Part shown: piece after piece, positions 14,188 through 54,126 of the stretch | Layout of the letters: each line of letters starts with the position of its first letter | Position numbering within the stretch: position 1 is the first letter of the stretch | Assembly: GCA_024336345.1 (NCBI GenBank) | Contig: JANFOG010000003.1 | Span: 433,501 to 497,500, forward strand | Direction: 5' to 3' | Length of the DNA: 64,000 bases | Source: Mariannaea sp. PMI_226 | Lineage: Eukaryota > Ascomycota > Sordariomycetes > Hypocreales > Nectriaceae | Notes under the pieces: generated by a model | Database searches by the model: none | Seen by the model: only the letters and a program-made list of their open reading frames with translations | What the model was told of the DNA's origin: nothing | Program-made: the position numbers and the translations under genes

Positions 14188-14315
14188 GCGGGTTTAGCTC
14201 AGTTGGGGTATGTCATAATCGATTTCCCTCGCTGAATAACTATAACTAACCTTCACTGACAGAGAGCGTCAGACTGAAGATCTGAAGGTCATGTGTTCGA
14301 TCCACATAAACCGCA
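14188..14315 (+). tRNA. tRNA-Phe (anticodon GAA) interrupted in the D-loop
   Basis: Joining 14188-14207 to 14263-14315 gives exactly 73 nt that fold as a eukaryotic tRNA-Phe. The acceptor arm is GCGGGTT/AAACCGC with one G5-A68 mismatch. U8 and A9 are followed by a GCTC/GAGC D-stem. The anticodon arm is TCAGA-CTGAAGA-TCTGA with GAA at positions 34-36. The variable loop is AGGTC, the T-arm is ATGTG-TTCGATC-CACAT, and the discriminator is A73. The A box (14195-14207) ends right at the insertion and the B box (14295-14303) is intact. A T7 run follows 8 nt after the gene. The normal fungal tRNA-Phe intron site after position 37 is uninterrupted. Instead 55 nt split the D-loop between GGG and A. 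Whether the transcript is ever matured is unknown; the alternative is a pseudogene, although the body shows no decay. Confidence 0.85.
14208..14262 (+). other. Spliceosomal-type intron inside the tRNA-Phe D-loop
   Basis: The insert begins GTATGT, has a CTAAC branch site at 14246-14250 and ends GACAG, 12 nt beyond the branch. At 55 bp it matches the protein-gene introns of this window in length and all three signals. Removing it restores an uninterrupted 73-nt tRNA. A bulge-helix-bulge recognised by tRNA endonuclease is not expected here, because fungal tRNA introns sit only at 37/38. Confidence 0.75.
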
Positions 14316-14323
14316 ATCGATTC

Positions 14324-14330
14324 TTTTTTT
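14324..14330 (+). terminator. Pol III terminator (T7)
   Basis: A run of seven T, eight bases after the tRNA 3' end, is what RNA polymerase III needs to stop. A second T8 run lies shortly downstream at 14343-14350. Confidence 0.75.
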
Positions 14331-52327: not shown

Positions 52328-54126
52328 ATGAATTCTAACACTATAGACGCTATGTCCAGCTCTGGGCCGACTCACAAGCAACAGGCCCACACTGCCGAAG
52401 CTTTCCCTGAAGAACAGCTCCCAGAGGGAATCACTGAGACGGAAGAAGAGAAAAAAAAATGTTGGTTTGTCGGCAGCATTGACCAGGGCACAACGTCAAC
52501 CCGGTTTATCATCTTCAACGGCCACGGTGAGCCCGTTGCTAGTCACCAGATCGAGTTTGAGAATAAGTACCCTAAATCTGGGTACGCTTGCTATGCTATA
52601 TACTGATACTACTTCCTTTCTAACTCCGTTATAGTTGGCACGAGCATGACCCTCAAGAGCTGTGCCAGTCTGTTGAGGTCTGCATCAAGGAGGCAGTCGA
52701 GAAGTTCCGCAGTCAAGGTTTCCCAGTTTCCAAGATCCGATCTGTCGGCATTACCAATCAGCGAGAAACTACCGTGCTTTGGGACAAGAACACTGGTGAG
52801 CCCCTTTACAATGCGGTTGTTTGGGCCGATACCAGAACAACGAGTCTCGTTCGAGACCTCAAGGCACGTCCGGGCGCCGATAAACTCCAGGACAAGTGTG
52901 GTCTCCCCCTTTCAACATATCCTTCTAGTGTCAAGCTGCTTTGGTTGATTGAGAATGTCGAGTCAGTTCGTAAGGCATATGAAGAGCAACGTCTTGCCTT
53001 TGGAACTGTTGACTCATGGCTCATCTACCGCCTTAACGGCGGCCACGAACGTGAGGGCGGCTCCGTCCACGTCACGGATTCTACCAACGCAAGTCGAACC
53101 ATGTTTATGAACCTGAGGACCCTCGACTACGATGATGAGCTGCTCTCGTTCTTCAACATTGACCGGGCTAAGCTAGTTCTCCCCAAGATTGTACCCTCAT
53201 CTCATCCAACTGCCTTTGGCTCTCTAGCTCGCGGGTGTCTCAAGGGCGTGCCTATTGCTGGATGTTTAGGAGATCAATCATCCGCTCTCGTGGGACAATG
53301 CGGCTTCACTCCAGGTCAAGCCAAGAACACGTATGGAACTGGGTGCTTCCTTCTTTACAATATTGGTCATGAACCTGTCATATCAACAGCAGGCCTCCTT
53401 ACCACAGTCGCGTACGATTTTGGAGACGGTCGCAAACCGGTTTATGCCCTTGAAGGCAGCATTGCCGTAGCTGGGTCAGGTATAAAGTTCCTCCAGAACA
53501 ACCTTACTTTTATTGAGGCGGCGTCAGAAGTAGACACGCTCGCCAAAACTGTCAAGGATAACGGAGGTGTAGTCTTCGTAACGGCATTTAGTGGCTTGTT
53601 CGCCCCCTATTGGATTGACGACGCCAAAGGCACACTCTGTATGCTGCTGCTTTCCTTTTCTCTTTTCACACCAGGCCACGGGTCAACTAACTGCTTTTCT
53701 CTAGTTGGAATTACACAGCACACTGAAAAGGGCCACATCATTCGGGCTACACTTGAGGCAACCTGCCATCAGACAGCTGCGATATTAGATGCCATGGCCG
53801 CCGATTCAGGGCACGCGCTGGAGAAGCTCGCAGTAGACGGAGGCCTTTCCAACTCGGAAATCTGTATGCAGACTCAAGCTGACCTTAGCGGTATCCCCGT
53901 CGACCGCCCAGCGATGCGTGAGACGACAGCCCTAGGAGCTGCTATTGCGGCTGGATTGGCGACAGGTGTCTGGAATGAGCTGGACGAACTGAAGCATGTG
54001 AATATCAAAGGCCGTAAGGTGTTCCATCCTCAACTTGGTGTTGATGAGCGCAGAAAGAAGCATAGGAGATGGGAGCGAGCAGTGGAGATGAGCAGGGGGT
54101 GGGTTAGAGATGAGGATGATGAGTAA
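52328..54126 (+). CDS. GUT1: Glycerol kinase
   Basis: Catalyses ATP + glycerol to glycerol 3-phosphate, the entry step for glycerol catabolism and a feed into lipid synthesis. Exons 52328-52581, 52635-53638 and 53705-54126 join in frame to 559 residues, typical of FGGY glycerol kinases with a short N-terminal extension (about 45 residues). The phosphate-1 loop is SIDQGTTSTRFIIF (D52). The glycerol-contact regions include GITNQRETTVLWDK and WADTRTT. The kinase signature YGTGCFLLYN and the GLFAPYWIDDAKGTLFGITQHT segment are intact across intron 2, and the ATP-binding AVDGGLSNSEICMQTQAD block is present. Both introns are about 53-66 bp GT-AG. No signal or membrane anchor is seen, so the protein is cytosolic or peripherally associated. 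Confidence 0.95.

Follow-up and report, generated by a model that had tools for sequence, protein, structure and literature searches.

An mRNA-type intron splits the D-loop of all tRNA-Phe genes found in Mariannaea sp. PMI_226 and is probably removed by the spliceosome

Introduction

Introns of nuclear tRNA genes and introns of mRNAs are taught as two separate systems handled by separate enzymes. Canonical introns of eukaryotic nuclear tRNA genes are located at position 37/38 and are removed by the tRNA splicing endonuclease, and the classic tRNA-Phe gene of Neurospora carries its intron at this very site. A link between the two systems has reportedly been made by engineering: Kohrer et al. 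are said to have described in 1990 a yeast tRNA precursor into which an artificial pre-mRNA intron had been placed and which was spliced by the spliceosome. U6, another small structured RNA, is a pol III transcript.

In fungi, mRNA-type introns have been described in U6 genes, in Schizosaccharomyces pombe (Tani and Ohshima 1989) and by Canzler et al. 2016, both cited in PMC5832005, where U3 and U6 are named as the only small structured RNAs known to be often interrupted. For tRNA genes, PMC4090602 reports ectopic introns in archaea, in the nucleomorphs of cryptophytes and chlorarachniophytes, and in Cyanidioschyzon merolae, and calls non-canonical introns in eukaryotic tRNA genes rare. According to the same paper, insertions in the D- or T-arm elsewhere mostly concern one of many synonymous genes and are for this reason taken for pseudogenes. 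PMC8450103 treats non-canonical tRNA introns for archaea. Searches of the openly licensed literature, partly in the form of excerpts, turned up no nuclear tRNA gene with a natural spliceosomal intron, and earlier reports may exist. Here, we describe the tRNA-Phe genes of the filamentous fungus Mariannaea sp. PMI_226 (Nectriaceae, Hypocreales), whose intron compares with each of these systems in some respects and departs from them in others.

Results

The gene under study encodes tRNA-Phe(GAA) and is located at positions 14188-14315 of the forward strand of the window, by which we mean the whole 64-kb stretch of DNA that was analysed. Read directly, it consists of two exons around a 55-nt insert placed between tRNA positions 20 and 21. 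Exon 1 (14188-14207, +) covers positions 1-20 and ends in GGG, exon 2 (14263-14315, +) covers positions 21-73, and the two joined make a 73-nt tRNA-Phe with its anticodon GAA at 14276-14278 (+), within exon 2. The internal pol III promoter is present on the same strand in the form of TAGCTCAGTTGG (14195-14206) and GTTCGATCC (14295-14303, containing TGTTCGA), which we take to be the A box and the B box, respectively, and a run of seven T serving as pol III terminator is found at 14324-14330 (+), 8 nt past the tRNA. The insert itself (14208-14262, +) has the features of an mRNA-type (GT-AG) intron: a 5' splice site GTATGT (14208-14213), a branch-site motif CTAAC (14246-14250) whose putative branch A, at 14249, is 13 nt from the last base of the intron, and a 3' splice site CAG (14260-14262), all on the forward strand. 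Both the 73-nt body with intact A box, B box and T7 run and the 55-nt interruption of the D-loop starting with GTATGT and ending with CAG had been put forward in a sequence-only reading of this DNA, and direct reading confirmed them. The same reading placed CTAAC 12 nt before a terminal CAG; the motif is there, but the spacing was stated slightly loosely, the 12 nt that follow CTAAC including the CAG. As expected because the gene is split, ARAGORN and Rfam cmscan called zero tRNAs in the window. When both strands of the 64 kb were searched for a strict form of the intron architecture (55-60 nt, starting with GTRNG and ending with YAG, the A of CTAAC being 12 or 13 nt from the last base), with criteria taken from the eight tRNA-Phe inserts described below, the only occurrence was at 14208-14262.

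We then looked at the genome assembly, which comprises 42.2 Mb in 25 contigs and may be incomplete, with four probes: the whole gene as a DNA query, an anticodon-arm pattern, the spliced 73-nt sequence, and a pattern allowing 0-30 nt at 37/38. All four retrieved the same eight tRNA-Phe loci on four contigs (two on C19, which includes the window, four on C25, and a single one each on C6 and C20), and each of the eight genes is split between positions 20 and 21. The pattern allowing 0-30 nt gave 8 matches and its backwards control gave 1, while the spliced probe aligned to each locus from position 20 to 73 only. Among the genome matches to the spliced probe and to the anticodon-arm patterns there was no intact tRNA-Phe copy, and among the matches to these probes there was none with the usual intron at 37/38; such searches score the best candidates only, so that the counts are lower bounds and a strongly diverged intact tRNA-Phe could escape. 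One further pattern search, made with a pattern unable to match the B box of tRNA-Phe (TGTTCGA), gave 1 match whose letters look like chance. The sequence-only reading, which described one split gene and suggested looking for other split copies and counting intact ones, understates the case: eight split genes were found and zero intact ones, and the split affects every tRNA-Phe gene found. Its core, an mRNA-type intron in the D-loop together with a continuous 37/38 site, holds in all eight copies, none of which has an insert at 37/38.

Four of the split genes lie within 1.4 kb of each other (L084; C25:944566-945953), three in one orientation and the fourth in the other, and this cluster holds introns of both sequence subfamilies. 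Inside it, ARAGORN with introns allowed named a tRNA-Pyl with a 285-nt intron (L084 3341-3719), which is probably spurious. When the 60-nt tRNA-Phe intron was used as a genome query it matched only itself, missing its sister introns at 78-79% identity, and is thus a weak negative as to related introns elsewhere in the genome. In the scanned viral_contigs, genome_contigs (first scan) and plasmids collections, neither the split gene nor its exon 2 was found. A further scan of genome_contigs showed one intact eukaryote-type tRNA-Phe (L090 6399-6471) on contig PBGD01000032.1, which is filed as a Flavobacteriales MAG and, given this gene, is probably eukaryotic contamination; it does not serve as a relative for comparison.

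To compare the eight copies, exons, inserts and flanks were considered separately. The exons, and with them the A and B boxes, are identical at 73/73 nt in all copies, and a T5 to T7 run begins at the 9th to 12th base past the tRNA in each of them. The inserts are 55, 56, 56, 57, 57, 57, 58 and 60 nt long. They start with GTATGT (four copies), GTAAGT (three) or GTAAGA (one), all contain CTAAC with its A 13 nt (five copies) or 12 nt (three) from the last base, and end with CAG in seven copies and TAG in one, this being the first AG past the branch motif in 8/8. Common to all eight inserts are thus GTRNG, a CTAAC whose A is 12-13 nt from the last base, and YAG. Over the 28 pairs, whole-insert identity ranges from 53 to 93% (mean 70%) and that of the part between the signals from 41 to 89% (mean 59%); the flanks have mean identities of 51% (100 nt upstream) and 54% (60 nt downstream), and shuffled inserts reach 50% (200 shuffles of one insert pair). 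With a looser signal set (GTRNG start, CTRAY with its A 8-30 nt from the end, AG end), 8/8 real inserts matched versus 1/160,000 shuffled inserts. That the exons are unchanged beside diverged introns at eight loci indicates that they are under selection, and the retention of the signals in 8/8 inserts versus 1/160,000 shuffles indicates that the splice signals are under selection too. Dead copies would show neither kind of conservation. Two other properties of the inserts were not distinctive: TTTT is absent from all eight, as it was in 1,208/5,000 shuffle sets (not significant), and a hairpin at the 5' splice site was inconsistent among copies (z from -3.6 to +0.8).

Coding introns of the window gave us a reference for the host. 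The glycerol kinase gene, aligned with two homologues, has introns of 53 and 66 nt, and the SNF2 gene, aligned with four homologues of which one is this fungus's own model, has introns of 72, 57 and 61 nt. In each of the five there is a CTRAY whose A is 11-20 nt from the 3' end (11, 14, 17, 11 or possibly 24, and 20 nt, two of these distances being counted by eye). A sixth, of 104 nt and starting with GTCAGT, in a Doa4-like gene, fits less well and has uncertain boundaries. The glycerol kinase model deposited for Mariannaea sp. PMI_226 (P0121) keeps the 66-nt intron, which is in frame, as coding (53639-53704), and the 22 residues it encodes are absent from both homologues compared. The tRNA-Phe inserts have the appearance of ordinary small introns of their host: all eight have a GTRNGN-like 5' site and a 3' AG as U2-type introns do, and both the distance of the branch A (12 or 13 nt) and the length (55-60 nt) are comparable with those of the five coding introns. 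One feature counts against a spliceosomal reading, namely that exon 1 meets the 5' splice site with GGG, which is not a typical U1-pairing exon end.

The genes otherwise have what a functional nuclear tRNA gene has, that is an intact body, A and B boxes and a terminator, in 8/8 copies. The insert is at 20/21 in all of them and not at the canonical 37/38. Pairing of the bulge-helix-bulge type, looked for in its canonical form, amounted over the eight copies to 0-1 of 4 central, 0 of 3 outer-left and 0-2 of 3 outer-right pairs. Inserts of 55-60 nt are too short for a self-splicing group I or II intron, and neither in the window nor in the four regions holding the other seven copies did an Rfam match to either group reach the gathering score, on which ground such an intron was rejected.

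We also looked at other small RNA genes of this genome. A single U6 gene was found (47 of 2,720 first-look candidates scored), on contig C2 (L088 about 1441-1600), and it is split as well: the exon ending in GAAACGAT is followed by a 56-nt GT-AG intron (L088 1473-1528) of the form GTTAGT...CTAAC...CAG, with the branch A 12 nt from the end, and then by ACAGAGAAG. The host of the split tRNA-Phe genes thus appears to have a second gene of pol III type with a GT-AG intron. The U6 intron holds a B-box-like GTTCGAATCC, and TATATA is present upstream of the gene. The segments GATGTTAG and CTAACATC, flanking and inside this intron, can pair, which gives it the look of a tRNA 3' half. The one SRP RNA found aligns end to end (295 nt for 293 model positions) without such an intron, and the RNase P match spans 388 nt for 301 model positions.

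When the genome was searched with the Rfam tRNA model, 63 of 1,269 first-look candidates were scored and 63/63 passed the cut-off; no Phe was among these 63 as named by ARAGORN. Neither ARAGORN nor the Rfam tRNA model named a tRNA-Phe in the window, in the retrieved tRNA-Phe loci or among the 63 scored tRNAs. In total, 52 of the 63 are 71-74 nt long and hence uninterrupted, and 11 are 84-107 nt long. Nine of the latter were aligned to the model, and all nine have their insert in the anticodon loop, one of them (Ser) also having the usual long variable arm; in the remaining two (L071 and L079), ARAGORN put the intron in the anticodon loop. Two tRNAs with anticodon-loop introns are Asn(GTT) (L082) and Met(CAT) (L077) by model alignment, while ARAGORN named them Ala(GGC) and Val(GAC). 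Glu(TTC) and Pro(AGG) are two further tRNAs with anticodon-loop introns, of 13 and 19 nt. Each of the 65 other tRNAs seen is therefore either uninterrupted or carries an anticodon-loop intron; this applies to genes for 16 amino acids, and Phe had D-loop-split genes only. Leu, Tyr and Trp tRNAs were absent among the tRNAs seen, and yeast Tyr and Trp probes gave no match. Finally, a pattern made of the branch motif, YAG and the D-stem AGAGC matched 19 places (12 in the backwards controls), of which eight are the tRNA-Phe genes; the remaining 11 each lack at least one of the two promoter boxes.

Discussion

The reading we favour is that in Mariannaea sp. PMI_226 a pre-tRNA-Phe made by pol III carries a U2-type intron in the D-loop, at 20/21, that is removed by the spliceosome, and that this concerns all copies found; given the conservation described above, we consider it very likely. 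Transcription by RNA polymerase III would start from the A and B boxes and run to the T-run, the spliceosome would recognise GTRNG, CTAAC and YAG in the pre-tRNA-Phe and join G20 to A21, and end processing and CCA addition of the tRNA-Phe would come after splicing. We infer pol III as the polymerase, splicing through a lariat and a spliceosome-dependent decoding of phenylalanine from the sequence of the genes. The sequence-only reading had offered three options, of which a pol III transcript processed by the spliceosome is now the best supported, splicing itself being deduced from the signals.

Another of these options was that the tRNA-Phe is cut from an mRNA-like, spliced transcript of RNA polymerase II, pol III being uninvolved. 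It is true that pol II transcripts are the usual substrates from which mRNA-type introns are removed, but the A box, the B box and the T5-T7 terminators are intact in 8/8 copies, which disfavours this option. Moreover, the upstream flanks of the eight loci are dissimilar, at about the level of shuffled sequence, and each locus would need its own promoter and 3' processing, whereas the similarly split U6 gene has a promoter of pol III appearance (a TATA-like upstream element and an intronic B box). We regard the pol II explanation as improbable. Removal of the insert by the tRNA splicing endonuclease and a ligase, as for the ectopic introns of archaea, nucleomorphs and Cyanidioschyzon, seems even less probable to us. 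Other tRNAs of this genome do have anticodon-loop introns, and PMC4090602 describes 20/21 introns for archaea and non-canonical ones for a few algal genomes; however, the inserts of the Guillardia theta nucleomorph measure 3-24 nt according to the same paper. In addition, canonical bulge-helix-bulge pairing is absent in 8/8 copies, and what is conserved are the linear GT, CTAAC and AG signals. An endonuclease-type ectopic intron was rejected on these points.

The third option, an intron that recently silenced one copy, is excluded, since no intact copy or copy with a 37/38 intron was found, the exons are identical while the introns have diverged, and the signals are kept in 8/8. There is only a slight chance that all eight copies are dead or silenced, with a functional tRNA-Phe located in sequence missing from the assembly. 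The 25 contigs and the lower-bound nature of the searches leave some room for this, but the exons have stayed identical despite diverged introns and flanks, the splice signals survive in every copy, and the spliced 73-nt probe and the anticodon-arm pattern found only these eight loci (backwards control, 1 match). A family of pseudogenes was thus rejected because of the selection on both exons and splice signals. An assembly or sequencing artefact at 14208-14262, which the sequence-only reading had named as a way for the insert to disappear, was not borne out. Inserts that differ from one another interrupt the same base position at eight loci spread over four contigs, which an assembly error at this locus does not explain, no N is present in the window or in the four regions holding the other seven copies, and no point in support of an artefact was found; its probability is negligible.

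Compared with the systems described so far, the spliceosomal intron proposed here shares its mechanism with the Kohrer construct, which was artificial, whereas the tRNA-Phe case is natural and present in all copies found. Canonical nuclear tRNA introns likewise interrupt a tRNA gene and need removal; the tRNA-Phe intron differs from them by its 20/21 position, its 55-60 nt, its spliceosomal signals and its lack of a canonical bulge-helix-bulge. With the fungal U6 introns it has in common that a small structured RNA of pol III type carries an mRNA-type intron, and U6 is split in this same fungus. Unlike U6, however, the molecule is a tRNA, 8/8 copies are split, and its promoter boxes are in the exons while the B-box-like element of U6 is intronic here. 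Fungal U3 snoRNA introns, as presented in PMC5832005, are also mRNA-type introns in a small structured RNA, U3 not being a tRNA. Ectopic tRNA introns share with the tRNA-Phe intron a location outside 37/38, and 20/21 is a known archaeal site according to PMC4090602; there, the introns of archaea and Cyanidioschyzon rest on sites of the bulge-helix-bulge type, whereas GT, CTAAC and AG are what is conserved here. In contrast with the insertions in single synonymous genes that this paper mentions, all copies found are affected. Spliceosomal introns in genes for small structured RNAs are thus known, and their presence in a whole tRNA isoacceptor family would be a new extension.

As for the origin of the intron, we can only speculate that it entered the mature tRNA-Phe by reverse splicing, and that the product was then reverse transcribed and replaced the gene. 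Such a gain via the mature tRNA would explain the missing 37/38 intron. We think it likely that the only phenylalanine decoder found is an obligate substrate of the spliceosome and that an mRNA-type intron replaced an ancestral endonuclease-type one, possibly by reverse splicing. Since ARAGORN and the Rfam tRNA model both miss the split tRNA-Phe, relatives of this fungus may carry the same arrangement unseen.

Altogether, an essential tRNA seems to have moved, in all copies found, from the tRNA-type to the mRNA-type intron system, and its production probably requires the mRNA-splicing machinery of the cell. If this is true, the case would allow spliceosomal splicing of a pol III transcript to be tested in a natural setting and would bear on the movement of introns between gene classes. 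The supply of a tRNA would be directly dependent on the spliceosome, and every phenylalanine codon in Mariannaea sp. PMI_226 would need, for its translation, a pol III transcript that has been spliced in the manner of a pre-mRNA.
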